IMG/VR virus record: IMGVR_UViG_3300028581_001156
Span: 1 to 24,241 of that record
From: a virus
Direction: 5' to 3' (one strand)
DNA: 24,241 bases
Shown one piece after another: positions 1 through 18,441 of this stretch (its first letter is position 1; every line of letters starts with the position of its first letter). The notes beneath the pieces are model-generated. The model did no database searches. It was not told the origin of the DNA and worked only from the letters and a program-made list of their open reading frames with translations. Position numbers and translations under genes: made by a program.

Positions 1-1266
1 TGGATCTCTTTCGCCAGCCGATATTATATTAATTTTTTCAAAGTTATAATATCCGTGTCTATTCTTTTCGTCATTGTATCTATTTAATATAGACTTAAAT
101 TCTGCAATTCTATCACTGCCTACAACCATTGTTACATTTCTATAACCCATATTATATATTTTTGTTGCTAATTCTAATACCATATTTGAAGGCATAACCA
201 TTATATGACTCGCATAGTTTCTAAACATCTTAGTCATATATCTTAATTTATCTGATGGTGATAATGGATTTTTAATTGCGTCTTGTGATCTACTTAAAAA
301 TATTTTATAATCCATACCTTGGCTGGCCACTGTTCTTATAAGTTTCTCGTGTCCTATTGTTGGTGGATTAAATCTACCAAAAGTAAATGCAAAAGATTTA
401 TTAATTGCTTCTGTCTTTATTGAATCTAATTCTGCGTCTGTAATCTCACCATCTTTTATTATATCTTTTAATGCTTTATAGAAAGTTAGATAGTGATATT
501 TTTCTAACATCTTATAAACAACGTTTTTAGGTAATTGATTTTTTCTACCAAATGTTTTTATTTCTTCTGGTGTCATATCAGTAGCAAATGCTGTTGCTCT
601 GTCTTTTAAAACTTCATCACCTATGGCCACTAAATGATTAATACTATCTTCTACTTCAATTACTTTTGCATTTATTAACTCTTGTAAATCTAATATATCG
701 TTAGGGTCTAATTCTTTTAATTCTCTATAGTCTATAAGGTCTCGTTTTAATTCGCCTTGTACTACATCAATTTCTCTTACTTTCTTTTCAAAGTCAGCTG
801 CATAACGTTTTGCATCAAACTTAAATTCTTTTGCTTTTCTTATAAATGTATTGTTCTTAACATCAAATACAGCATCAGCCATTTTATCGTTTGTTTCTTT
901 TACGTTAGGATCTGTAATGATATAATAATTAATAGGATGTTTTGTACCTGGTACTAATGCACCATTAATGTTTCTTAATGACTTGGCTAATTCTTTTCTT
1001 ATAACATCTCTATCTTCTAATGGCACATCAAATAAAACGTTTACATCTAAATCGGCATCATCTCTATATGTTTTTGTAAGTATTGAACCTACTAAACTAT
1101 ATTTTAATACCGGTCTTATATCATTAAATTGTTTAATTTGATTGTTTATAATATCTAACACACCTTGTTTTAATTTTGGATTATCTGTATCGGCATCATC
1201 AAATACACCTTTGGCATATGTTCGTCTAGGTATATCTATTACTGCCTCTTGTATTAATCTAAACAT
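1..1266 (-). CDS. Two-domain nucleotidyltransferase (Pol-beta-like + HxGH cytidylyl/adenylyltransferase-like), C-terminus outside window
   Basis: An open frame runs from an ATG at 1266 through 422 codons to the left edge without a stop, so the gene is partial. Residues about 54-80 read SLVGSILTKTYRDDADLDV, the G-S...D-x-D signature of Pol-beta-type nucleotidyltransferases; the position where a third carboxylate is often found looks like Asn (HPINYYII, about 110-117). After a charged helical middle (about 140-290), residues 295-311 carry FGRFNPPTIGHEKLI, the TxGH form of the HxGH nucleotidyltransferase fold, followed by NPLSPSDKLRYM (about 333-344) and VVGSDR (381-386), as in NMN-adenylyltransferase-like enzymes. 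The substrate cannot be told. The ATG overlaps the end of the kinase gene by 8 nt. The N-terminus MFRLIQE-AVID offers an I-x-E cleavage site like its neighbours' leaders. Fold assignment is fairly sure; reaction is unknown. Confidence 0.8.
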   Translation of the reverse strand, partial: MFRLIQEAVIDIPRRTYAKGVFDDADTDNPKLKQGVLDIINNQIKQFNDIRPVLKYSLVGSILTKTYRDDADLDVNVLFDVPLEDRDVIRKELAKSLRNINGALVPGTKHPINYYIITDPNVKETNDKMADAVFDVKNNTFIRKAKEFKFDAKRYAADFEKKVREIDVVQGELKRDLIDYRELKELDPNDILDLQELINAKVIEVEDSINHLVAIGDEVLKDRATAFATDMTPEEIKTFGRKNQLPKNVVYKMLEKYHYLTFYKALKDIIKDGEITDAELDSIKTEAINKSFAFTFGRFNPPTIGHEKLIRTVASQGMDYKIFLSRSQDAIKNPLSPSDKLRYMTKMFRNYASHIMVMPSNMVLELATKIYNMGYRNVTMVVGSDRIAEFKSILNRYNDEKNRHGYYNFEKINIISAGERDP

Positions 1267-1945
1267 CTTTTCTTCTAGCCATTCTTTCTTTTGCCATCCA
1301 TCTTTTTGCAATATAACTTTTAATAGGCGTTGTTAAAAATCTTCTTACAACTGAATTTACTTTGTTCATTGTTTGTGTTACTAATTCTTGTTCTGATTTA
1401 CTGTTATCTACTACAACAAAGCTTGCTAAACCAAAAAGGTTTTGAAATCTACCTATATTATTTTGAACTGATTGCCAAGAATTTTTAGTAATATATTCTG
1501 GTACAACTCTTTCTCTTTTAGCATTTCTTTCTAATGCAACTTCTAAACTTGTGTTTACAAATACCATATAACAATCGTAACCTAATAATTGTAACGCACT
1601 ATACTGGCGACTTATAATATTGTAATCTCTACCTGTGGCATCTATAACTAAACCTAATCGGCCTTTTACATATAAATCTATTTGGTTATCTACAATGGCC
1701 TTTGCTCTTGTTCTTAATATATCTCTAAAATATTGTTCTTCATCAGGCATAGATAAAGATAGACCTGCTTTTTTTAAACTGTTTTCTAATATAATATCTG
1801 AATTAACTAACTTTAATCCTGTACCTGCAAATACGTTTCTTGCAACAAAAGACTTACCTGAACCTGGCCCGCCTGCAAGAAAGAAAGCCTTAAATATATT
1901 AGGGTCGTAAAGGCCTTCTGAAAGTATTTGTTCGTATGATTTCAC
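1259..1945 (-). CDS. P-loop kinase, zeta-toxin / polynucleotide-kinase-like
   Basis: About 228 residues. A Walker A motif GGPGSGKS lies near residues 25-32, the strand LVIDATG near 99-105 gives a Walker B/acceptor-site acid, and an arginine-rich lid RNAKRERVVP lies near 140-149. This is the layout of zeta-toxin-like and T4 Pnk-like kinases, which phosphorylate nucleotides, nucleotide sugars or nucleic acid ends. The preferred start is a GTG at 1945, which shares one base with the upstream stop codon (TAGTG). It gives the N-terminus MKSYEQILSE-G, very close to the capsid-targeting leader of T4 internal protein III (MKTYQEFIAE-A). A GTG at 1957 is also open but would add four residues inside the previous gene. 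The neighbours (ligase-like and nucleotidyltransferase genes) suggest nucleic acid end chemistry rather than a toxin; no antitoxin gene is visible. Confidence 0.8.
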   Translation of the reverse strand: MKSYEQILSEGLYDPNIFKAFFLAGGPGSGKSFVARNVFAGTGLKLVNSDIILENSLKKAGLSLSMPDEEQYFRDILRTRAKAIVDNQIDLYVKGRLGLVIDATGRDYNIISRQYSALQLLGYDCYMVFVNTSLEVALERNAKRERVVPEYITKNSWQSVQNNIGRFQNLFGLASFVVVDNSKSEQELVTQTMNKVNSVVRRFLTTPIKSYIAKRWMAKERMARRKDV

Positions 1946-2223
1946 TAGCAATTCCACTTTCTTAAAGCTAATGCTTTACGTGTAGGTCTTCCTTTTTCAT
2001 CTTTCATAGGACCTGGATTGCCTGACATACGAGCACAAAACGATTTACGTCTATTGTATGCCTTGCCTCCTTTTTTCAATTCAGATGGTTTTTTTGTAAC
2101 AGGTGCTTTTAGATTACTACCATCTTTGCGATTAAAGTAATCTCTACCCTTTTGTGTTAATCCACCACTCGGACTTTTAAGCCCTTTGGCATCTTCTTTT
2201 ATATATTCTTTAAATGTTTTCAT
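1945..2223 (-). CDS. Small basic phage protein, DUF6321-like
   Basis: A 92-residue, strongly basic protein. It contains SPSGGLTQKGRDYFN (about 18-32), a lysine/proline stretch, then KSFCARMSG (about 60-68) and the C-terminal block RKALALRKWNC. I recall this SPSGGL...KSFCARMSG pattern from a conserved phage family listed as DUF6321; its function is unknown. The first residues MKTFKEYIKE-DAKG match the T4 capsid-targeting leader style and end in an I-x-E site that a gp21-like prohead protease could cut. The ATG directly follows the stop of the ligase-like gene, and its stop overlaps the kinase start, so the genes are translationally coupled. Size, charge and leader would fit an internal head protein; that role is inference. 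Confidence 0.7.
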   Translation of the reverse strand: MKTFKEYIKEDAKGLKSPSGGLTQKGRDYFNRKDGSNLKAPVTKKPSELKKGGKAYNRRKSFCARMSGNPGPMKDEKGRPTRKALALRKWNC

Positions 2224-3444
2224 TTATCCCTTTACCCAATCTTTGGCTATTGTAAAATTTGCACGACTAAACTCTAGCCTATCTACAAGTTTAACGGCAC
2301 CTCTCACTCTATCAACGGCCACATATCCTTCAGGATTTGTTACTCTATATCCATCTGGTGTTCTTATAAAATGACCAATTGATTGTATTTGATTTAATTT
2401 TCTAATAAGAAAATTCTTTGCACGTTGTAGTGAAATCCAACTTGCAATTGTAAAATATAATGCTTGTTTATTTCTATCAATAAAATCTAAACCATTATCT
2501 CTTATTGTTCTATACTTTTTTTTAGTTTCATCTTTAGAAACAGCATCTACTTCTTGTTGTAACATATTTGCATAATACGACCTAAACATATCTATTAATT
2601 CTCTTACTTTGGCAATATCGCCTTGTGTATTTTTTATAAAGTAATTAAAGAAAGATTTAAGTTTATAACCTACTGATAATGGGTCTGTTGAATTGAATTG
2701 ATTTAATAATGGTTCTGCCTTTGATAACGAGCCTTCTGCCATCGCTATAATATTATCAAACTGTGTCATTTCTGCATTATTAAATGTTGCAACGCCTGAA
2801 GCATCTTTATAAGTGGCGTCTGTTACAAACACTGATGATAGTTTAGGAAATCCTCTTAATGAGCCAAAACTGGCCTTTAGATTACTCATTTTACTGCCTG
2901 TGTATAATGTATGAAATACAATACCTAATCTTGCACTGGCAATTCTTTTACCTATTTGACTATTTGTAGCGACTGCATATGTAATTGTGTTTGGTGTAAA
3001 TACATAAAAATCTTGGTCGTCTATTGTAGTAGTTTTAACATCGCCTTTTGTAAACAATAAATCACCTTGTAATATGCCTGTGATACCTAACTTAGATAAC
3101 TCTCTTAAACATACAATGAGTTTATTAGCTAAAACGCCATCGTGGTTTCGCATTATATCACCTGTTGAATAATTAATTTTAGGTGTTACGTTGAATACTG
3201 ATTTTGTACCAACAAAGAATTTGCCATTTTCTGGATTAATGCCACATATAACAGCAGGCGCACCGTCCCATTTAACAGTTACGTTAAGTCTACCACCTAC
3301 GTGGCCTGTTAACATTTTTTTGATTGACTTTAGAAAGTTAACTGCATTACGACCACCTTTTGAACCTTGGTCTATAAGGCTATCTTCTAAATGTTCTAAA
3401 TGGGTGTTTGTACCCTTAGTAACGAATCCTTTAAAACTAAACAT
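2224..3444 (-). CDS. RNA-ligase-like covalent nucleotidyltransferase (DUF6267-like)
   Basis: A 406-residue protein with what look like the ordered motifs of the DNA/RNA ligase and capping-enzyme superfamily: motif I VKWDGAPAV (Lys58-x-Asp60-Gly61, Lys58 being the expected AMP/GMP attachment site), GTKSVF near 79-84, a motif III-like GDLLF at 127-131, motif IIIa-like FYVFTP at 146-151, motif IV EGYVA at 372-376 (the form found in T4 RNA ligase 1) and motif V-like VKLVDR at 384-389. A helical insertion of about 150 residues separates motifs IIIa and IV. I recall related phage proteins under DUF6267, without a proven activity. It is the first gene after the paired promoters at 3502-3530. The N-terminus MFSFKGFVTKG resembles the leaders of its neighbours but has Lys at the cleavage position. 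The ligase assignment rests on motif order and is inference. Confidence 0.65.
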   Translation of the reverse strand: MFSFKGFVTKGTNTHLEHLEDSLIDQGSKGGRNAVNFLKSIKKMLTGHVGGRLNVTVKWDGAPAVICGINPENGKFFVGTKSVFNVTPKINYSTGDIMRNHDGVLANKLIVCLRELSKLGITGILQGDLLFTKGDVKTTTIDDQDFYVFTPNTITYAVATNSQIGKRIASARLGIVFHTLYTGSKMSNLKASFGSLRGFPKLSSVFVTDATYKDASGVATFNNAEMTQFDNIIAMAEGSLSKAEPLLNQFNSTDPLSVGYKLKSFFNYFIKNTQGDIAKVRELIDMFRSYYANMLQQEVDAVSKDETKKKYRTIRDNGLDFIDRNKQALYFTIASWISLQRAKNFLIRKLNQIQSIGHFIRTPDGYRVTNPEGYVAVDRVRGAVKLVDRLEFSRANFTIAKDWVKG

Positions 3445-3501: not shown

Positions 3502-3530
3502 ATTATACTACACTATTTATAAAAAGTCAA
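3502..3530 (-). promoter_or_regulatory. Sigma70-type promoter for the ligase-like/kinase block
   Basis: Read on the minus strand: TTGACT (3530-3525), a 17-bp spacer, TATAAT (3507-3502). Eleven of twelve consensus bases match. The start point would be near 3495, about 50 bp upstream of the ligase-like gene. Confidence 0.75.
3514..3521 (-). promoter_or_regulatory. T4-type late promoter box TATAAATA
   Basis: TATAAATA on the minus strand, the T4 late promoter -10 sequence recognised by the gp55 sigma factor with gp33 and the clamp. It lies inside the spacer of the sigma70-type promoter 3502-3530, so the downstream block may be transcribed both early and late. Phage gp55 itself is not in this window. 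Confidence 0.5.
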
Positions 3531-3537
3531 GTCTTTA

Positions 3538-4968
3538 TTAGCTTGTTTTAACAAAAAATGAAGATACATCAGTATTTGAAGCTCCATATCTAAATAAATC
3601 GGTGGCGAATCCATCTTTCTGTGATTTGTTACCTGACATAAAGGTATCTAAAAAAAGTAAACACATATTTTTTGAAAATATAAAAGATTGACCTTTTGAT
3701 TTACACATTTTAACAAATTCTCCTTCATCTATAGTTGATGTTTTATTTATTTGTAATGTATTATATTTTTTATATAACTTATACATATTTTTCATATCAG
3801 CGCCGGTAGCAGAAGTTTCTCTCCAACCACTCATAATACTATTTTTACCTATTGATTTTTTAAAATGTTTTTCGCAATAATAATTTACATTTCCTCCTCC
3901 TATTTTTCCTCCTGCAGCTGCCGCTCCTTTAATTTCTCCTTGCCAACTAGACGTACTATTAAAAGCTCTAAATTGAACTTCTGCTGTGCCTAACTTAAAA
4001 TACATATCTATTGAACTAAAAAAATCTCCATTTTTACCAAATATAAATCCTGTAAAAGGTATTATGTTATTAATTTTTCTAACCTTGGTATTATATTTTG
4101 TAAGGCTTACTACACCACCTGTTTTTTTTAATGATACGGCTAATAAAACAACGCCTTTAGATTTTAATTCTCCAGCTTTATCTAACACGGTATTATTTAA
4201 TTCTTGCCAATCTCCATTACCTCTTTCTTTTATTTTTTCAAAAGGGTCTACTGTAGGACTTAAAGACGACATCCAAACGTCACCTGCATTCCATTTATCA
4301 TCAGCAAAAGATCCTGGTGCCTGTGGTTGACTTCCAGTTTTTTGAGCTAATTCTATATCTATTTTCTGAGCTCTTTTTTTAGCTTCATAAATTTTTTTTA
4401 GAAAGTTATCCGTTGATCTACCTTGGTGCATATATACTATTCCAGAAAAATTTGACCTATAAAAATCAAAAACTTTATTTGCTGTTTTTATATATGTTTG
4501 ATCATCAATCCAAGAAACTGGTCCTGTTTTTAAAAAAACTTCTAAGCTAATTTTTGCTGTAACATATGCCGCTGCTTTTTTTAAATTTGCATCAGTACAA
4601 TCTTCTGGTTTTAGCTGTTTTTTTATTATATTAAATGCTAGAGAAAAATAATATGCTTGTCCTGATTCAGTTATATCGGTGTTTTCTGATCCACCACCTG
4701 AGCCTCCACCTCCTCCAAAATCAGAATCTTTATATATTTTATTTATTGATATATCTATTAATTTTTTATTACTATTACGATAGAATAATTTTATAGGTGA
4801 AGTTTTTAAATCTACTTTTTCAGCAAAAAACTTTGTGCCTGAACCTGAACCTATATAAAAAGGTTGTTTGTTTTTAATTTTTAAACTGATGATTTCTGTT
4901 CTTTTTTTGCCGGCATAAGGACCTTTTGAAGCTATTTTACTTAACTCTCCGGTAGTTAGCATTGTCAT
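3538..4968 (-). CDS. Large unknown protein with glycine-rich linker
   Basis: 476 residues, family not recognised with confidence. An N-terminal beta-rich segment (about 1-82) is joined by a glycine/serine linker (GGGGGSGGG, about 85-93) to a larger domain. That domain holds KWNAGDVW (about 225-232) and, after a helical stretch, the strand VVLLAVSLKK (about 273-282). A D...S-x-K pair in such a setting recalls degenerate PD-(D/E)XK nucleases, but this is weak. A run GAAAAGGKIGGG lies near 348-359. No signal peptide or membrane span is evident. GCC codons are much rarer than in the neighbouring gp41 gene (about 3 against about 17 by eye), hinting at a different origin. A TATAAATA box sits 6 bp upstream of the ATG, leaving no visible ribosome binding site; expression may be late and nearly leaderless. 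Confidence 0.7.
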   Translation of the reverse strand: MTMLTTGELSKIASKGPYAGKKRTEIISLKIKNKQPFYIGSGSGTKFFAEKVDLKTSPIKLFYRNSNKKLIDISINKIYKDSDFGGGGGSGGGSENTDITESGQAYYFSLAFNIIKKQLKPEDCTDANLKKAAAYVTAKISLEVFLKTGPVSWIDDQTYIKTANKVFDFYRSNFSGIVYMHQGRSTDNFLKKIYEAKKRAQKIDIELAQKTGSQPQAPGSFADDKWNAGDVWMSSLSPTVDPFEKIKERGNGDWQELNNTVLDKAGELKSKGVVLLAVSLKKTGGVVSLTKYNTKVRKINNIIPFTGFIFGKNGDFFSSIDMYFKLGTAEVQFRAFNSTSSWQGEIKGAAAAGGKIGGGNVNYYCEKHFKKSIGKNSIMSGWRETSATGADMKNMYKLYKKYNTLQINKTSTIDEGEFVKMCKSKGQSFIFSKNMCLLFLDTFMSGNKSQKDGFATDLFRYGASNTDVSSFFVKTS

Positions 4969-8520: not shown

Positions 8521-9624
8521 CTAACGGATGATTTGTAGATTATTATTTTTAGTCCAGATTTCAAGTTCACTTCTTATTTTATTCTCCTTTTTTAATGTTT
8601 CATAACGATTGATGGCTTTGTTTCTCCACCACTCTATGATATTGTTTAGTTCAAACCTATCGTAGGTTTTATCTTTAATGATTGTATTTGTTTTACCATT
8701 TACAATTTCTATAAAGTTCTTAATACCATAATTACTTATATAATATCTTTTCTGTTCTGTCAAGTCTTTTGCGTTGTGGATAACTTTGTTAAAATCTTCT
8801 AATTCGGTTTTATAATCTTTTAAAGAACGTTTAATTAAACCTACGATTGCGTTGGTTAGTTTTAATTTTTTACTTGAAGCATCTTCTTTCACTAAATCGC
8901 CGACTATGTTTTCAACGTAGTCTTTTAATTTTTCAAAAGGCAATCCGTGCAACATAGGTATAAAATCACTGTCTGTTAGGCCTTTATATCTTACAAAAGG
9001 TTTCATACCATCATACTGACTTGATGATTTACTATTACCATACAAACTTGTAGTTTCAAATAAACATAAATTCATATCATATTTTTTATTTAATAATTCT
9101 CTTACGTAATGACTACAACAAATGGCCGCTAACAACTTGCCACCTAGATAATTATAACCAAAAGGTTGAGATGGTACTATAACAAACCCCATCATAGCTG
9201 TTTTATTAAAATGACTTAAATTAGGTACACTGCCTAACATCTCATTACGAGGTTTCATATTAATAACTGGCGAACCTAATCTTATAAACCCTACCCATTT
9301 ATTTGTGGTTGTTTCTTTTATTGCTAGTTTCAAAGCTTTACCAGGAATACTTACCATATTACTATGACTTGAAATCATATTAATACAAGTGTCCCAAGTT
9401 TCGTTATCAATTTCTTTTACTTCTAGTTTCATATCTTTAGGCGACATTGTAAAATCAGAAAATAAATCATCATCTAAACTCATACCAGGAAGGCCAGCAG
9501 GAATATTTTGTATAGAGGCAATCTTTTGGTCTCTCATATATTCATCTATACGAGAAAAATTACCAAAATAATTTTTAAATATATCAGCACAATGTAGTGC
9601 TTGTTCTTTAGTTAATGTTTTCAT
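8521..9624 (-). CDS. Conserved phage protein, possibly DUF4338/DruA-like GNAT-related
   Basis: 367 residues. The middle has the order WVGFIRLGSPVINMKPRN (110-127), GFVIVPSQPFGYNYLGGKLLA (146-166) and LCLFETTSLYG...QYDGMKPFVRYKGLT (187-217). This layout resembles DUF4338 proteins (the family of Druantia DruA), where a G-rich strand, a 'LPW..LAS' helix and an 'ETFV...Y.AANW..G.T' block follow in the same order; the similarity is by eye and remote. The C-terminal 140 residues are helical and charged. Its ATG overlaps the MT-A70 stop as ATGA, so the two are translated together, which suggests a role in DNA modification or in handling modified DNA (inference). A promoter-like sequence inside it (8735-8763) may serve speD. 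Confidence 0.7.
   Translation of the reverse strand: MKTLTKEQALHCADIFKNYFGNFSRIDEYMRDQKIASIQNIPAGLPGMSLDDDLFSDFTMSPKDMKLEVKEIDNETWDTCINMISSHSNMVSIPGKALKLAIKETTTNKWVGFIRLGSPVINMKPRNEMLGSVPNLSHFNKTAMMGFVIVPSQPFGYNYLGGKLLAAICCSHYVRELLNKKYDMNLCLFETTSLYGNSKSSSQYDGMKPFVRYKGLTDSDFIPMLHGLPFEKLKDYVENIVGDLVKEDASSKKLKLTNAIVGLIKRSLKDYKTELEDFNKVIHNAKDLTEQKRYYISNYGIKNFIEIVNGKTNTIIKDKTYDRFELNNIIEWWRNKAINRYETLKKENKIRSELEIWTKNNNLQIIR
8735..8763 (-). promoter_or_regulatory. Possible internal sigma70 promoter
   Basis: Minus strand: TTGACA (8763-8758), 17 bp, TATAAG (8740-8735), 11 of 12 matches, but lying inside the 367-residue gene. It could give early speD transcription with a leader of about 280 nt, or be a chance match in AT-rich coding DNA. 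Confidence 0.3.
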
Positions 9625-10166
9625 ACTTCGTTACCCCAACAATCCCAACCATCAAACTTTTGTCTGGCAAATAATTCTATTCTTGGTAAATCACCACAAA
9701 GTTCTACTATATCATTTCTAATTCTATCTGGCTTTCTACTGTGCTCACGTCTTTCAGAAACAACTAATCTATCTACATTAGCACCGTTTCTTTTTGGTTT
9801 ACCTTTTGTTGCTAATATACATATTTCAGGATTGGCTCTTGTCCAATAACCAGGCCCTTTAAAATAATAATTTTTCATTCTATCTTTATTTGTTTTTGCC
9901 CAAACAAAACCTACCGTCTTATATTTAAATCCCCAACTTTCAACAACAGGTATTTGTTTGTCTAACAATGGGTCTGTACACCACATAAACAAAACACAAT
10001 CGTCAGCTGCTATATTTTTTACAGGTAAATTATGTATCTCTTTCATATTCATAGTTTGATAATGATTTAAAGGATTTGTTTGTGCCTTTTCATTATTCCA
10101 ATTTTCAAAATGCCAAGGTGGGTCGGCGTAGATAATATTATATTTTTTATTTGGAAAATCAATCAT
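9621..10166 (-). CDS. MT-A70-type DNA N6-adenine methyltransferase
   Basis: 181 residues. Enzymes of this family transfer a methyl group from SAM to adenine N6. The catalytic motif DPPW is at residues 15-18 (IIYADPPWHFENW), followed by HYQTMN, LFMWCTDP, the conserved TRANPEICILATKG (about 111-124), the HSRKPD block and the SAM-side motif RIELFARQKFDGWDCWGNEV at the C-terminus. This order is characteristic of phage and bacterial MT-A70 proteins. Target sequence unknown. The start overlaps the small membrane gene by 8 nt and the stop overlaps the next gene by 4 nt. With the Mom-like gene upstream, adenine N6 appears to be a favoured modification site in this phage. Confidence is high for family, lower for DNA rather than RNA as substrate. 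Confidence 0.92.
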   Translation of the reverse strand: MIDFPNKKYNIIYADPPWHFENWNNEKAQTNPLNHYQTMNMKEIHNLPVKNIAADDCVLFMWCTDPLLDKQIPVVESWGFKYKTVGFVWAKTNKDRMKNYYFKGPGYWTRANPEICILATKGKPKRNGANVDRLVVSERREHSRKPDRIRNDIVELCGDLPRIELFARQKFDGWDCWGNEV

Positions 10167-10353: not shown

Positions 10354-12839
10354 TGAAAGAAAGACTCCAGATTTGCTTGTTTCTCTTGCTGCCAACCAAT
10401 GGCCTGTAACACAAATCTCATAGGGTCTAAGAAAGTCTTTTCAAATTGTGTTTCATAATCTATGTATTGTTGTAGTTTAAACTCTTTAGGTAAAGTAGTA
10501 ATATAACTAATCACATCAAACTTAAATGGATTTGCCTCTACCAGTTTAAGAAATTTAATCTTATCGCCTTCTTGTATAAAAGGATATTTGTTTGATAATT
10601 TGAATTGTTTGATTTGATGATTATATATTAGAGCGCCTTTCACGTGTATTGGCGTGCCTTTAATAAAGATATTATTACTGTCTTTATATTTCTTCATATT
10701 ATTACAAGACCTAGGAAAAGATATTTCTTCAGCTGACATATTAAAAAACTCTTTCTTAAAGTCAGCAATAAACTTCTGTAATGTATCTTCATCTTTATTC
10801 ATTATTATTTCTATGGCCTTTTTAATTCTACCTCTACATACTTTAGGTGTTGATGACTTAACAGCTTCGATACCCATAATCTTTAGTTTAGTTTCAGAAA
10901 GTCTTACGCCTTCTTCATCTAATACATTTAACATATATCTTTTCTTTGCAACCCATATACCTTTGTTGGCGATTACTTCTCGTTTCATTACCATACAGTT
11001 TTTAAATGCGTTTGTATAATCTGCAAGTTCTTCAAAACATTTATTTAAAAATGGTTCTATTCTACTGTTAACTACTTTGTCTATAAAGTTACATATCTGG
11101 TCATCTGTTTTATCCTTACAAGTATGTTCTACGAGTTTATCAAGTGTAACATAAATTGAATCTGTATCTGAAGCCACAATATAATCTACTTTGTCGTGTG
11201 TCTTTAATATGTTGTTAAGATAACCATTTACCTTTTCCTCTATAAAACGAATGATAAACTGGCCTGCCGTAGTGATTGCACTGGCCTGTCTTACATCATA
11301 GTATCTAAAGTATTGATTACCAACTGCACCATAAGCGGAGTTTAAAGCAATCTTTCTTGCCCACTGAATATTATGACAACGAGATATTTCTTTTATCAAT
11401 TCAGGATTTTTAGTTCGTTCATATTCTTTCTTTGCTTTTAACATTCTGTCTTTGAAAACCACACGCTCGTTATACATTGTTTCCATCATTTCAGGTAAAA
11501 AACCTTGACTGTCTGTTTTAAACAATGCACCATTAGGTGTAATACAAGCACCATCAGTTTTCAGATAGGCAAGAGGTGTGGATTGATTTAACATTTTATT
11601 CACTGAAATACCAGATGGTTTTTCACCTATGATTTTTTCTGGCGATATATTATATTGTATAATGATATGCGGATATAGTGAGTTAATATCAAATGAAACA
11701 ATCCACTTGTGCATACCAAGTTGTGGCTCTTTTACATAAGCGCCTTCATACTTTTCATTCTTTACATTATCTTCTCTCGGTGGTACACAAATGTTTTTCT
11801 TTAATAAATGATTTGCTATCAGTGTGTCCCATACTCGCACTTGTGAAAAGATGTCGCCATAATTTACTTTAGATTCATAGGCAACAGTTAATGATAAATC
11901 AATCAAGCCAAGTTTATCTTCTAAAGCATCAACAATTTCCACGTCTTGTATATTGTAATCAATAAATGATTGAAAGTCTTTTGTATACCAATCTTTAAAT
12001 GTATCGTGTTTCATTTCATCTTTACCACGACCAAGTTCTAGTTCACCAATAAAATCTAGTTTATAACTCTCTTGTCGTGTAGGTATAAACCATTGATATA
12101 GATCTAAGTAATCTAAATTCGTAATACCTTTTATATCATAAACTGTTTGAGGTCGGCCTCTTACTAGAATAACCTCTCTTTGAAATAAACCCCAAGGAGA
12201 TATTTTATTTGCAACCTTATCACCAGCAATTAATATAATTCTATTCATTAAATAAGGTAAGTCAAAGAATTTAGTATTCCAGCCTGTGATAACATCAGGA
12301 TAGTTTTTCATCCAGAAGTTCATAAACTCAAACATTAATTGTTTTTCGTCTTTACATTTAACGTAAGTAATATCTGGTCTGTCTGTTTTATAATCACCAA
12401 CACCCCAAGTAATGATTTGTTTATTGTTTTGATTTTTAACTGTGATACAAAGTATTTCTTCTATAGGATTTTCTACATCAGGAAAACCATTTTCGCAGGC
12501 CGTTTCTATATCTAATGTAAATATTTTTATAAACTTTTTATCCCAATCTATATCTTCAGGATGTTTTTTATTAATGTATTGATAATGGTATCTCTCTAAG
12601 CCATAGATAGGTGAATTTTCGGTTGCTACCTCTCGTCTAAATTTACGAGCATCATCAATTGTTTTAAATGTAATAGGTTTAAGAAACTGGCCTTGTAGAG
12701 TTTTAAATTTTGTTTGTTGTTGCGTTAATGAATAAAGTGTAGGGTCAAAATCTATTTTTTCTTTATATTCTTGGCCTTCGTGTACACCTCTTACAAGAAG
12801 TTTACCTTTAAATTCAATAACTGATTTATAGAAATTCAC
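10350..12839 (-). CDS. 43: Family B DNA polymerase (T4 gp43)
   Basis: 829 residues, slightly shorter than T4 gp43 (898). Exonuclease motifs: TLDIET (Asp110, Glu112), GWNTKFFD (Asn188, Asp193) and YNIQD (Tyr295, Asp299). Polymerase motifs: A, DINSLYP (Asp384-Pro390); B, RKIALNSAYG (about 495-504); C, SDTDS (558-561 region) and a later KKRY. The C-terminus QANLESFFQ looks like a sliding-clamp-binding peptide. Proofreading and polymerase residues are all present, so the enzyme should be active. The gene starts inside the end of the Mom-like gene (14-nt overlap) and is uninterrupted by introns or inteins. Confidence is very high. Confidence 0.98.
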   Translation of the reverse strand: MNFYKSVIEFKGKLLVRGVHEGQEYKEKIDFDPTLYSLTQQQTKFKTLQGQFLKPITFKTIDDARKFRREVATENSPIYGLERYHYQYINKKHPEDIDWDKKFIKIFTLDIETACENGFPDVENPIEEILCITVKNQNNKQIITWGVGDYKTDRPDITYVKCKDEKQLMFEFMNFWMKNYPDVITGWNTKFFDLPYLMNRIILIAGDKVANKISPWGLFQREVILVRGRPQTVYDIKGITNLDYLDLYQWFIPTRQESYKLDFIGELELGRGKDEMKHDTFKDWYTKDFQSFIDYNIQDVEIVDALEDKLGLIDLSLTVAYESKVNYGDIFSQVRVWDTLIANHLLKKNICVPPREDNVKNEKYEGAYVKEPQLGMHKWIVSFDINSLYPHIIIQYNISPEKIIGEKPSGISVNKMLNQSTPLAYLKTDGACITPNGALFKTDSQGFLPEMMETMYNERVVFKDRMLKAKKEYERTKNPELIKEISRCHNIQWARKIALNSAYGAVGNQYFRYYDVRQASAITTAGQFIIRFIEEKVNGYLNNILKTHDKVDYIVASDTDSIYVTLDKLVEHTCKDKTDDQICNFIDKVVNSRIEPFLNKCFEELADYTNAFKNCMVMKREVIANKGIWVAKKRYMLNVLDEEGVRLSETKLKIMGIEAVKSSTPKVCRGRIKKAIEIIMNKDEDTLQKFIADFKKEFFNMSAEEISFPRSCNNMKKYKDSNNIFIKGTPIHVKGALIYNHQIKQFKLSNKYPFIQEGDKIKFLKLVEANPFKFDVISYITTLPKEFKLQQYIDYETQFEKTFLDPMRFVLQAIGWQQEKQANLESFFQ

Positions 12840-13608
12840 TTAAATTACCTTCACTTTTATACATATTAACGTTCTTCTTATTATATATCATTTCTTTAGA
12901 TAAGTCAAATGGTATCTTATTCGTTTCTTTATATTCTGTTTCACCAGGCTTTTTTATGTACCAAATTAGGTCTTTATCTTTAGGATAATTCAACGACCAT
13001 TGTACTGTTGATTTTTTTAAAAGCTTTCGGTCTTTTTTAGTCATAGGGTAAATATATCTAAATTGTTTGCCTTTTACACGACTTAATTTTAATTCTATTA
13101 ACTGTTTTGGATTTGGTCTCATTCCATATTTTCTGTTTTTAGTATTAGGTATATGGCCTTGCATTGTTCTTGGATGTACTTTTTCTCCTTGTTCGGTGAC
13201 ATAAGTATCTGTTATAGAAAATCCACCATATAAAAAATTAGCAGATTGATATACATAACCTGGTTTACCAACTAGACCATCAGCCCAAGTAAAAAGATAT
13301 TTAATGTTTGTATTTTCTTTTAACCATTTAATAGATAGAGAAAGTAATTGTGATTCTGAATTTTTTGGCATTTTATCATCCATACACATCTTACCTATCT
13401 CAAAATAATCTTTTGTGTCTAATTGTGGAAATAACTTTTGTATAGTGTGTTTAGGTCTTGTGCCCCAACCAAAGGTAATTACACCTATTAAGTCGTCTTG
13501 TATAAAACAACCAAGATAATGTTTTGTAAGTTTAGGCATTACTGCTGAATAATGCCTTGATGCTACAAACTCAGCCGCCGTGTATTTGTTTAATGGTTTT
13601 AATATCAT
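12826..13608 (-). CDS. Mom-like adenine modification protein (GNAT-related)
   Basis: 260 residues. The Mom family of phage Mu converts adenine in DNA to N6-carbamoylmethyladenine and protects the DNA from host restriction; the fold is related to GNAT acyltransferases. Family features seen here: RHYS at 18-21, the strand LIGVITFG (40-47), the block EIGKMCMDDKMPKNSESQLL (70-89), FTWADG...GYVYQSANFLYGG (106-129) and HPRT after it. The start codon shares one base with the ferredoxin stop (TAATG) and the 3' end overlaps gp43 by 14 nt, so ferredoxin, Mom-like enzyme and polymerase are made together. The glycinamide-like product of Mu Mom makes the tRNA-Gly-like RNA at 19377-19450 a possible partner (speculative). 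Confidence 0.8.
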   Translation of the reverse strand: MILKPLNKYTAAEFVASRHYSAVMPKLTKHYLGCFIQDDLIGVITFGWGTRPKHTIQKLFPQLDTKDYFEIGKMCMDDKMPKNSESQLLSLSIKWLKENTNIKYLFTWADGLVGKPGYVYQSANFLYGGFSITDTYVTEQGEKVHPRTMQGHIPNTKNRKYGMRPNPKQLIELKLSRVKGKQFRYIYPMTKKDRKLLKKSTVQWSLNYPKDKDLIWYIKKPGETEYKETNKIPFDLSKEMIYNKKNVNMYKSEGNLSEFL

Positions 13609-14280: not shown

Positions 14281-14309
14281 ATTATACTACTTTTTATCTT
14301 TTTTGTCAA
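14281..14309 (-). promoter_or_regulatory. Perfect sigma70 promoter for the ferredoxin-Mom-polymerase operon
   Basis: Minus strand: TTGACA (14309-14304), 17 bp, TATAAT (14286-14281), 12 of 12 matches. The -35 box lies within the last codons of the RimK-RimB gene, the -10 box in the short gap. Expected start near 14274, about 10 nt from the ATG of the 103-residue gene, so the leader is very short. Confidence 0.9.
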
Positions 14310-15783
14310 TAGGTTTGATACGTCTGCTCAATACAAACTCTCGGTTTGGATTTACAGAAGCATTAAATCTTCTTATCATATCTCTATTTAACAACACATC
14401 ATTACGTGATCTAATTCTTTCATCTAAGCCAAATTCTATATCTTTATAAACAAATCCATTAAATGTTACATCTATTTTAACAACTGGCCTTTCTTCGCCA
14501 TCAACATCATCTGTATTTGCTCTAAAAATTTTTACTTTACGAACCAGTTTACTTGTATGTTTTTTACCATCATATTTCCAAGAAACTTTACCATCTTTAA
14601 TTTCTATTTCTTCAGCGTGTAATGCACTCACTTCAGCACCATTACCTGTATCTAATTTTGCTCTAATTAAACCAACGCCACTTAATTCTAATGTTTCAAT
14701 ATAACCAACCTCTATAATTGATTGACGGTCCCAATTGTCCCTATTGTTTATGTAATCAATTATATTATCTACTAACTGTTTGCCTTTTATTGGGCCTGTT
14801 GTATTAGGTGTGTCAGCATAATCTTCATAATGATATCCTTCGTAATCAGCTCCTGTTCCTGGTGAACCATTGACTTCTAATACACAAATTTTATCTTTGT
14901 ATATAATGTGGTCTACACCTACGATATAAGCCTTTGATGCTCTGGCCGTTCTTAATACTATTTCTATTTCTTCATCTGATAATTTATAAGGTTCTGCAAC
15001 AGCACCTCTATGTACGTTAGACCTAAATTCACCTTTTGCCTTTACTCTTTTTGTACAAGCAAATATTTTATTATCAACTACAAAAGTTCTTATATCAAAA
15101 TCTGTAGGCATATATTCTTGTACTAATAATTCGGCATCGTGTTTAAATAATGCCTGCACTACTGATATTAATGAGTCGTAACTGTCTACCTTTACAACAC
15201 CAATACCTTGTGTGCCTGTTAATGTTTTAACTACAACTGGAAATTTGCCACCTATAATCTTTAATGCTGTATCTATATTTTTTTCATTTGATATAAAGGC
15301 TGTTTTAGGTGTAGGTATATTAAACTTTTCAAATAACAAAGCAGAAGTTAATTTATTATCACAAGTTAACATTGATGACCTTGTGTTTAACATAAAAGAA
15401 CCAGAATTTTGAAAGGCAGATATTAAAGAAAGGCCTGCTTCATCTTCAATTGCACCTGCTCGTGTAATAACAACTGTGTTTTTACCTATGAAAGTATGTT
15501 CACCATCTTCACCATCATAGTTATAAATGGTCAATGAATTTTTTTCTTCGTCTTTGTCTGTAATGATTGAGTGTTTAGTATTGATTATAAAACAAGGTAT
15601 TTTTCTTTTCTTACAAGACCTTTGTATAAAACTTACTGTAATTTCTTTTTTAGTCTTACGATTACCTGTTTTTTGTTTTCTTACTTTAGGCGAAGATTTG
15701 GTAATGACAACAACTGTAATTGGTTCGCTGTCTTTAGGTTTTTTAGCCTCGTTTATAAAATCTCTAAACTTTGGAACTTGCAT
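14287..15783 (-). CDS. RimK-like ATP-grasp ligase fused to RimB-like retropepsin-fold protease domain
   Basis: 498 residues. The first part (about 20-330) is an ATP-grasp ligase: FPVVVKTLTGTQGIGVVKV (about 176-194), LLVQEYMPTDFDIRTFVV (about 220-237), FRSNVHRGA and the metal-binding end VLEVNGSPG. RimK adds glutamates to the C-terminus of ribosomal protein S6. The C-terminal part (about 355-490) has AKLDTGNGAEVSALHA, the DTG active site of RimB / 'ATP-dependent zinc protease' proteins, which trim RimK-made tails. Ligase and trimming protease in one chain suggests controlled tailing. The first residues MQVPKFRDFINE-AKK end in an I-x-E site like T4 capsid-targeting leaders. The gene starts right after RegA. 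The substrate here is unknown; S6 is the first guess. Confidence 0.88.
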   Translation of the reverse strand: MQVPKFRDFINEAKKPKDSEPITVVVITKSSPKVRKQKTGNRKTKKEITVSFIQRSCKKRKIPCFIINTKHSIITDKDEEKNSLTIYNYDGEDGEHTFIGKNTVVITRAGAIEDEAGLSLISAFQNSGSFMLNTRSSMLTCDNKLTSALLFEKFNIPTPKTAFISNEKNIDTALKIIGGKFPVVVKTLTGTQGIGVVKVDSYDSLISVVQALFKHDAELLVQEYMPTDFDIRTFVVDNKIFACTKRVKAKGEFRSNVHRGAVAEPYKLSDEEIEIVLRTARASKAYIVGVDHIIYKDKICVLEVNGSPGTGADYEGYHYEDYADTPNTTGPIKGKQLVDNIIDYINNRDNWDRQSIIEVGYIETLELSGVGLIRAKLDTGNGAEVSALHAEEIEIKDGKVSWKYDGKKHTSKLVRKVKIFRANTDDVDGEERPVVKIDVTFNGFVYKDIEFGLDERIRSRNDVLLNRDMIRRFNASVNPNREFVLSRRIKPIDKKDKK

Positions 15784-17137: not shown

Positions 17138-18078
17138 TTAAATTTACAACCGGCCATTACTTCAGTAAGACAAGCCACCATATTGATTTCTTGGTCAGCA
17201 ACAAAGGCCGCTTTGTATTGATAACCGGCAATAATTAAAACTGCCTGTGGTATAGATTTAGGGTCTAAATGTAAATAAAGAAGCTCATAGATTTCTTTAA
17301 ATAAATGAGTTGGCCCGTGGTCTAGGTTTTGTGAAACCCATTTTCGCATACCATTAAAGTCTTTGTCTTTTAATTTAACAATAAGGTCTTTATAGTTTTC
17401 TTCTTTTAAACTAAAAAGAATACCACTGTCTATTTTACCACGAACAGAATATCTTTGTAATTCATTTATGGTTCTTCTAAAATCAGGATAGTGTTTTTGT
17501 ATAACTTCTGCTAATACATTTTTATCAAATTCTATGCCTTCATCTTTTAATATAATAGATAATCTATTCATTAATTTTGCGGCGGTTTTAGCCTTTTGAC
17601 CATTTGTAATTCTAAAATCAATAACAGTACAACGACTATGTAACGCTTCTATAATTCTACTTTTGAAATTACAAGTAAAGATAAATCTACAATTATTAAA
17701 AAACGTTTCAATAAAGTTTCTTAATGCAGGTTGTACTGACTCGGCGTTCATATAATCTGCCTCGTCTATGATTACAACTTTATGATTGGCTTCTTTAGTA
17801 AGTGAAATGGTAGAAGCAAAGTTTTTAATTTTGTTTCTTAATGTATCAATCTGACGGCCTTCATCAGAACCATTTATGATAATATAATCTACACCTATTT
17901 CTTCACATAAGGCACGAGCTACAGTAGTCTTACCTGTGCCTGGTGTGCCTGATAATAATAGATTAGGTATTTCTTTTTTCTTAACAAACTCAATAAAAGT
18001 TTGTTTTAAATCTTCTGATAAAATACAATCTTCTATTCTTTTAGGTCGATACTTCTCAACCCATAAAAAATCTGACAT
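17134..18078 (-). CDS. 44: Clamp loader large subunit, AAA+ ATPase (gp44)
   Basis: 314 residues (T4 gp44 has 319). It starts MSDFLWVEKYRP, the classical opening of loader ATPases. Walker A GTPGTGKT at 44-51, Walker B VVIIDEAD at 101-108, sensor 1 FTCN at 134-137 and the SRC arginine-finger motif LHSRC at 146-150. The C-terminal helical region includes YPDFRRTINELQRYS, also conserved in T4. It loads the gp45 clamp onto primer-template DNA. A GGAGTT ribosome binding site precedes the ATG. Confidence is very high. Confidence 0.97.
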   Translation of the reverse strand: MSDFLWVEKYRPKRIEDCILSEDLKQTFIEFVKKKEIPNLLLSGTPGTGKTTVARALCEEIGVDYIIINGSDEGRQIDTLRNKIKNFASTISLTKEANHKVVIIDEADYMNAESVQPALRNFIETFFNNCRFIFTCNFKSRIIEALHSRCTVIDFRITNGQKAKTAAKLMNRLSIILKDEGIEFDKNVLAEVIQKHYPDFRRTINELQRYSVRGKIDSGILFSLKEENYKDLIVKLKDKDFNGMRKWVSQNLDHGPTHLFKEIYELLYLHLDPKSIPQAVLIIAGYQYKAAFVADQEINMVACLTEVMAGCKFK

Positions 18079-18093
18079 AATATAAACTCCAAG

Positions 18094-18441
18094 TTAATCA
18101 TTTTTCTCTTTTACTAATTCGTATTCACTTTCGTAACCACCTTTACGGTCTGAAACCCAATCATCATACCTATCACTATGGCCAATTTCACTTAGAAATT
18201 CCCAAAGCTTATATTCACCATCTGTTTCTGAAAAACATTTTTCAAAGTTTTCCATTGAACCAAAATATTTAATTATTTCTGATGGTAAAGGTAAATAAGT
18301 GAACTCACTCGTAACATTATGAAATTCCCTTGATATAACTTTAACAGGTGTTTCTTCTGATAGAACTGTGCCATCAAAAGACCTATTAACGCCAGCGGTT
18401 TTATCTTCCTCCTCTGGTGTCATTACAACAGGTTTATTCAT
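18094..18441 (-). CDS. Unknown acidic protein between gp45 and gp44
   Basis: 115 residues, acidic, opening MNKPVVMTPEEEDKTAG and ending KGGYESEYELVKEKND, with a central FTYLPLPSEIIKYFGSMENFEKCF. No family recognised. GGAG precedes the ATG, which lies just after the gp45 stop. Tight placement between clamp and loader genes suggests a replication-linked role, on position alone. Confidence 0.75.
   Translation of the reverse strand: MNKPVVMTPEEEDKTAGVNRSFDGTVLSEETPVKVISREFHNVTSEFTYLPLPSEIIKYFGSMENFEKCFSETDGEYKLWEFLSEIGHSDRYDDWVSDRKGGYESEYELVKEKND

Follow-up and report, generated by a model that had tools for sequence, protein, structure and literature searches.

Putative capsid-targeting leaders of T4 type on the products of a predicted late operon in a marine T4-like phage

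Why should four adjacent genes of a marine T4-like phage open with short stretches that resemble the leaders directing internal proteins of T4 into its head? The window analysed here, meaning the whole stretch of DNA, is a complete IMG/VR virus record (IMGVR_UViG_3300028581_001156) of 24,241 bases, and the closest named relative of its source phage is the Pelagibacter phage HTVC008M (52%, judged by DUF6267). The genes in question encode a DUF6267 protein, a DUF6321 protein, a P-loop kinase and a nucleotidyltransferase, and all of them lie on the minus strand. Their products are most probably cargo of the T4 type, targeted to the capsid and trimmed by the prohead protease gp21. As T4-type capsid-targeting sequences (CTSs) the leaders are well supported by sequence comparison. 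Packaging in the window phage is likely, judging by homologues; trimming of all the products except DUF6267 is likewise likely, and by analogy with T4 the trimmed enzymes would be injected into the host.

Mutagenesis of T4 CTSs has assigned residues 4 and 7 to targeting and residues 8 and 10 to processing (PMC9026906; here and below, statements about published work refer to the passages of each paper that were available). The leader would bind the prohead core through residues 4 and 7, so that the enzyme would be built into the prohead; gp21 would then cut after hydrophobic-x-Glu, freeing a mature enzyme that would be packed with the DNA and enter the next cell with it. A fixed-position rule (rule A) was derived from this scheme, requiring an aromatic or aliphatic residue at positions 4 and 7, a hydrophobic residue at 8 and Glu at 10. 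The positions were taken from the T4 paper, while the residue classes were chosen after the leaders of the cyanophage S-CREM2 had been seen. Three further rules (B, C and D) were written after sight of the same leaders and for that reason are not used as evidence. The genes and leaders of the window are as follows.

3514..3521, minus strand: T4-type late promoter box TATAAATA, predicted, 77 nt upstream of the DUF6267 ATG
2224..3444, minus strand: DUF6267 protein (PF19782, 1.3e-116), RNA-ligase-like, first gene of the predicted late operon
3415..3444, minus strand: CTS-like leader of DUF6267, MFSFKGFVTK, then Gly; targeting residues present, Lys in place of Glu
1945..2223, minus strand: DUF6321 protein, 92 aa (PF19846, 4.6e-27)
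2194..2223, minus strand: CTS leader of DUF6321, MKTFKEYIKE, predicted cut before Asp; matches rule A
1259..1945, minus strand: P-loop kinase, polynucleotide-kinase-like, GTG start (AAA_33; match to the Pnkp kinase fold)
1916..1945, minus strand: CTS leader of the kinase, MKSYEQILSE (VKSYEQILSE as GTG-coded), predicted cut before Gly; matches rule A
1..1266, minus strand: nucleotidyltransferase (NTP_transf_2) with a cytidylyltransferase/NMNAT-like part, cut by the contig end
1246..1266, minus strand: short leader of the nucleotidyltransferase, MFRLIQE, predicted cut before Ala; no rule A match

These openings had been picked out in a sequence-only reading of the window, and translation of the genes confirms both the three leaders, including that of the kinase from its GTG at 1945, and the ligase-like neighbour with Lys, not Glu, at the cut position. 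Rule A matches two of the 30 window genes, the kinase and DUF6321, against a mean of 0.06 in shuffled sequences (P 0.0014). When shifts are allowed it matches three (P 0.0038), the third being a RimK-like protein starting at 15783. The cut motif alone gives a weaker signal, with four of 30 genes against 1.1 expected (P 0.025). Neither the shorter nucleotidyltransferase leader nor that of DUF6267 matches rule A. Since the former has the cut motif only, the place of the nucleotidyltransferase among the CTS cargo rests on its relatives.

Applied to T4, the rule selects 5 of 265 genes (IPII, IPIII, Alt, gp24 and 61.1; 0.51 in shuffles), the first four of which are known gp21 substrates. It thus recovers 4/10 T4 substrates against 1/255 other genes, missing IPI, gp21, gp22, gp23, gp67 and gp68. 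A position-free leader profile ranked 61.1, IPII and IPIII high together with many unrelated proteins, placing 15/265 T4 genes above its threshold of 8; because of this noise the fixed-position rule was used.

The remaining T4 match, 61.1 (AF158101, 18966-19130), is annotated as hypothetical and opens MKTFKEFIKEDMVAG, nearly the leader of the window DUF6321: MKTFKEFIKED and MKTFKEYIKED have a single mismatch over 11 residues. It is a candidate for an unrecognised internal protein of T4. One paper naming gp61.1 was found, and the available passage gives it no head role.

Are the leaders conserved in related phages? Searches for related loci took the best 80, so that the counts describe relatives near the window, and these loci are interrelated rather than independent. 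Among isolates of this group, the Melnitz phages have both the kinase and DUF6267. One DUF6321 scan and one DUF6267 scan used queries that included the leader; four further scans did not. Among short unique homologues of the kinase, [LI]-x-E followed by Gly is present in 97/97. Nucleotidyltransferase homologues have the Glu in 92/94, Ser or Ala as the next residue in 93/94 and the cut motif in 87/95, and distant members open MRFKDFIKE, then Ser. Alignment of homologues thus shows either leader or cut site to be conserved, as the sequence-only reading would have it. It can be asked whether these openings are instead normal helices at the N-termini of the enzymes, kept for the sake of the fold and similar to T4 by coincidence. 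The kinase Glu-Gly-x-Tyr and the nucleotidyltransferase Glu-Ser/Ala-Ile-Ile-Asp do adjoin conserved core residues, and the aromatic half of the leader is variable in the kinase family. However, the same motif occurs on unrelated folds, residues 1-15 of DUF6267, which hold its leader, lie outside the modelled fold (pLDDT < 50), and two further lines of evidence given below, from podoviruses and from the S-CREM2 virion, also argue against coincidence. This explanation is considered unlikely.

The DUF6267 leaders are of more than one kind. Among 131 unique short sequences, 76 have FxFxGF without Glu, as in the window, 46 have hydrophobic-x-Glu and nine are of other types; an example with Glu is MKSFIDYLKE, on a protein of only 28% identity. 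The window clade would therefore have retained residues 4 and 7 and lost the cut site. There is a parallel in T4, where Asp at residue 10 stops processing and still allows targeting (PMC9026906). Because the targeting residues are kept and the Glu is lacking, the DUF6267 proteins of this clade may be packaged untrimmed.

A natural negative control for the leader appears to be provided by podoviruses, since DUF6321 is also present in T7-like members of this group. Stand-alone DUF6321 proteins carry a leader on 32/32 contigs classed as T4-like at >= 150 bits and on 0/9 podovirus-class contigs. With no threshold applied the counts are 32/43 and 0/12, the 11 leaderless exceptions on T4-like contigs being weakly classified (< 110 bits), and none of 25 more stand-alone copies on mixed or unclassified contigs has a leader; these class counts omit 4/131 unique open reading frames (ORFs) cut by a contig end. 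In the podovirus proteins of P-GSP1 and HTVC031P the domain begins almost at the N-terminus. The absence of the leader from podovirus DUF6321 is at odds with a helix conserved for the fold. In the pelagipodovirus HTVC031P (L459) the leaderless DUF6321 gene (18056-18301) lies between the scaffolding and capsid genes; this position hints that DUF6321 itself may have a function connected with the head.

If the leaders are cut by gp21, the protease should accompany them. A gp21-type protease (PF03420) is found in 11/16 records, among them 4/4 T4-like references and 7/10 IMG/VR relatives, including 6/6 relatives above 100 kb. It was found in 0/2 podoviruses tested and is absent from the 24 kb window fragment, where head genes are missing. 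The cut site of T4 gp23, FLTE followed by Ala, aligns with FLGE, ILTE, LLTE and FLAE in four marine phages, so that the specificity of the prohead protease looks shared between T4 and marine phages.

Expression late in infection would fit proteins of the head. A predicted promoter, the T4-type late box TATAAATA at 3521, stands upstream of DUF6267 as the sequence-only reading had noted, and the box recurs within 150 bp upstream of DUF6267 in 91/127 loci (expected 2.4%). It was found upstream of DUF6321 in 0/50 loci, of the kinase in 0/97 and of the nucleotidyltransferase in 0/93. A box before DUF6267 and none before the three downstream genes fits a single late-transcribed operon running from 3444 to 1. 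The gene junctions are tight: the kinase GTG at 1945 shares one base with the DUF6321 stop, and the nucleotidyltransferase ATG at 1266 overlaps the end of the kinase gene. Kinase homologues have ATG at the codon matching this GTG, which indicates that the start is right. Together with conservation, absence from podoviruses, recovery of T4 substrates and gp21 in relatives, the late box upholds the earlier view that the leaders are of the T4 capsid-targeting type.

Whether such proteins reach the virion can be judged from cyanophage proteomes. In S-CREM2, with 52 virion proteins (PMC10665884, Table 3), rule A selects 6 of 219 genes: gp6 (SAM hydrolase), gp13, gp14 (kinase-like), gp136, gp154 (cytidylyltransferase) and gp175. 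The first five are non-structural virion proteins, while gp175 is not in the virion. The rule thus picks out 5/26 non-structural virion proteins, 1/167 non-virion proteins and 0/26 structural proteins, a class that includes two endolysins (p 1.7e-4). With one residue of slack and three phages pooled the figures are 7/49 against 9/589 (p 6.9e-5), the signal coming mostly from S-CREM2 and the proteins of one phage being treated as independent. The nucleotidyltransferase homologues SCREM2_154, SSZBM1_140 and SSCSM1_91 were all detected in virions (3/3), and all have a CTS (3/3), that of SSZBM1_140 being MRFRQFIIE, then Ala, and that of SSCSM1_91 MKSFLQFLKE, then Ala. DUF6321 homologues were found in virions in one of two cases, the virion protein SCREM2_137 having DUF6321 as its C-terminus. 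The leaderless DUF6267 homologues SSZBM1_141 and SCREM2_87 were detected in 0/2 virions, and the family of the window kinase was seen in no virion proteome examined. In these proteomes the proposal that the enzymes are packaged in the head is thus backed for the nucleotidyltransferase family in three cyanophages, and has no such backing for the kinase family, which offered no homologue to compare, or for DUF6267.

Virion detection itself has another possible source. The enzymes could be cytoplasmic proteins that are simply made late or in large amounts, with contamination accounting for their virion homologues, and the leaders could do something else, such as tethering to the prohead core without packaging. 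Contamination or high expression is considered possible by the proteome authors, those of S-CREM2 stating that they were unable to rule out carry-over of strongly expressed proteins (PMC10665884), and in S-SCSM1 the leader is not significantly associated with the virion label. Set against this are the link in S-CREM2, the detections in three phages, which come from separate studies, and a published S-CREM2 virion list from which, as available, replication enzymes such as DNA polymerase and helicase are missing. Such an origin is judged very improbable, even more so than that of the conserved helix.

Capsid-targeted cargo nevertheless has a number of observations weighing against it. The full targeting rule is satisfied by only 28/97 kinase leaders and 38/95 nucleotidyltransferase leaders, and in HTVC008M rule A matches 1/198 proteins, none of them from the four families. 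S-SCSM1, the replicate for S-CREM2, gave 1/17 against 1/234 (p 0.13), no significant enrichment; S-CREM2 and the nucleotidyltransferase family therefore carry most of the case for tying the leader to packaging. SSZBM1_192, a DUF6321 protein behind a clear CTS, was not detected in the virion. Two small proteins that adjoin structural genes, SSZBM1_191 (MKSFKSFLSESVNISG) and SSCSM1_30 (MKTFKQFMSESVNISG), have perfect leaders, and both went undetected in their respective virion proteomes. Finally, head genes are missing from the window contig and no proteome exists for its phage. A further difficulty comes from outside the operon, where the protein found by the shifted rule lies:

14287..15783, minus strand: RimK-like ATP-grasp and Zn_protease-like protein, outside the main finding
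15783..15748, minus strand: leader of the RimK-like protein, MQVPKFRDFINE, shifted by two residues, predicted cut before Ala; F..F[ILF].E in homologues

Its homologues have F..F[ILF].E in 36/36 cases. The gene belongs to a replication module and has TATAAATA upstream in 0/36 loci, and on both counts its leader sits poorly with head timing.

Some relatives carry the same modules in longer proteins. The nucleotidyltransferase is fused behind the kinase in one ORF in four loci (L143, L151, L238 and L271) and behind PAP2 (Pfam) in another (L123). In these fusions the aromatic targeting half is missing, and the hydrophobic-x-E cut motif is kept in 18/18 complete cases; with incomplete ones included it is present in 21/27, against 70/1350 random windows. 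Long DUF6321 proteins have their own CTS at the start in 20/43 and [ILVMF]-x-E directly before the domain in 35/45, against 644/2250 random windows. The fused proteins can be read as putative precursors with an N-terminal address and cut sites between the modules.

CTS-like stretches also occur at C-termini. MLSFKDYANK, MMSFKDYTKKV and VQSFKEYVKI are encoded at nucleotidyltransferase 3' ends (L239, L265 and L149, respectively), SSCSM1_93 (L457) has the C-terminal stretch RTFKEFLEYIE, and such a terminus is present on 22/107 unique nucleotidyltransferase tails against 0/204 tails of four other families. T4 Alt is reported to be cut at both ends.

What might the cargo do? In DUF6267, KxDG, EGxV and KxVxR are conserved without exception in 32 sequences, and correspond to nucleotidyltransferase motifs I, IV and V. 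In a comparison of its AlphaFold2 model (pLDDT 82) by VIA, rows 1-35 are all nucleic-acid ligases, the best match being a Naegleria RNA ligase (Z 7.7, root-mean-square deviation (rmsd) 3.9, 182 residues aligned; Z < 8 is inconclusive alone), with T4 Rnl2 and Trl1 at Z 6.6. Foldseek gave no significant match for the model, and a sequence search against the PDB returned nothing relevant. On the fold comparison by VIA, DUF6267 may belong among the RNA ligases. The kinase model (pLDDT 86) is nearest to the Pnkp kinase of C. thermocellum (4gp7; Z 17.8, rmsd 2.5, 164 aligned), ahead of adenylate kinase (14.8) and T4 PNK (14.6), and its sole PDB hit by sequence is zeta toxin (1.5e-5); it is putatively polynucleotide-kinase-like. 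The nucleotidyltransferase combines an NTP_transf_2 domain of Pol-beta type with an NMNAT/cytidylyltransferase-like domain and found no PDB match.

The combination of a ligase with a 5'-kinase points to RNA repair, and the NMNAT-like part to a supply of NAD, so that the cargo may, as a hypothesis, be an RNA end-healing and sealing set with an NMNAT-like domain. In T4, Pnkp and RNA ligase act in tRNA repair; they are made after infection and are not known to be carried in the head. The window proteins resemble that pair, which is discussed in PMC7824862, in their modelled kinase and ligase folds, and a part in phage counter-defence has been discussed for RNA repair and for NAD supply alike (PMC7824862, PMC9503650). 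That the cargo rescues the infection early on, when the host attacks tRNA or NAD, is offered as a hypothesis only. The fullest form of the idea is tentative, with the balance tilted against it: that marine T4-like heads carry an RNA end-repair kit of DUF6267 ligase, 5'-polynucleotide kinase, Pol-beta-type nucleotidyltransferase and NMNAT-like domain, which would be made late, addressed by CTSs, released by gp21 (partly from polyproteins) and injected, undoing tRNA-cleaving or NAD-depleting defences before phage expression.

The surroundings of the operon and of the S-CREM2 genes add a few observations. A PHROG 1462 protein (3538..4968, minus strand), in which no CTS was seen, lies upstream of the operon; its homologue SSCSM1_90 is annotated as a virion protein. 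The replication region of the window also encodes a DruA-domain protein (8521-9624, Pfam), a candidate MT-A70-type methyltransferase identified by eye (9621-10166) and a Mom-family DNA-modification protein (12826-13608, Pfam). S-CREM2 gp12 (OR473000, 7704-10313), a virion protein annotated as Cas9, has LRFASFMAE, then AAVD, near its N-terminus; no Pfam domain was found in it, and a nuclease packaged in the head would be notable.

The window leaders resemble those of T4 IPI, IPII, IPIII and Alt in length and at residues 4, 7, 8 and 10, and the two systems share the cut motif [IL]-x-E, a late promoter (for the window, a predicted box) and gp21 (for the window, in relatives). Unlike the T4 internal proteins, the window cargo consists of several enzymes (ligase-like, polynucleotide-kinase-like and nucleotidyltransferase), some of its relatives form part of longer putative precursors that contain internal cut sites, and its DUF6267 leader has no Glu. 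Iyer et al. (2017, PMC5512222) described polyvalent proteins in phages and plasmids, which are similarly multi-domain, rich in enzymes, thought to be injected early and partly cut by peptidases; the available text has neither 'capsid targeting' nor 'cyanophage' and mentions no CTS, and the present system differs in that its enzymes come from individual genes or short fusions and would be cleaved by the prohead protease. The ejection proteins of the giant phages SPN3US and phiKZ likewise come from the head and have N-terminal propeptides that the prohead protease removes, but several of these propeptides are longer than 100 residues, and their cut motif reads AxE or SxE (PMC5694885).

Also comparable are the NMNAT/cytidylyltransferases of the S-CREM2, S-SCSM1 and S-SZBM1 virions (PMC10665884, PMC9602691, PMC9146016, respectively), homologous to the C-terminal domain of the window nucleotidyltransferase (33-45% identity) and bearing a CTS; the kinases of these virions are unrelated to that of the window. 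Cytidylyltransferases, kinases and other enzymes have turned up in several published cyanophage virion proteomes without their authors deciding between cargo and contaminant, and the available text of the three papers cited here gives no targeting mechanism. Literature searches found no paper naming DUF6321 or DUF6267 and, by title or abstract opening with subscription papers outside, none on CTSs in marine phages; 'capsid targeting' and 'cyanophage' came together only in PMC9026906, where, in the text available, cyanophage stands in a reference title. As far as these searches show, the kind of system is already known, and what is new is the cargo set, its polyprotein forms and the link to the unexplained enzymes of cyanophage virions. 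A short, readable leader, checked against T4, would supply a mechanism for those detections, and would allow the enzymes that a T4-like phage takes with it to be predicted from nothing but its sequence. For DUF6267 it would also give the first clues to function, and it would make the idea of a polyprotein cargo cleaved by the prohead protease open to testing.

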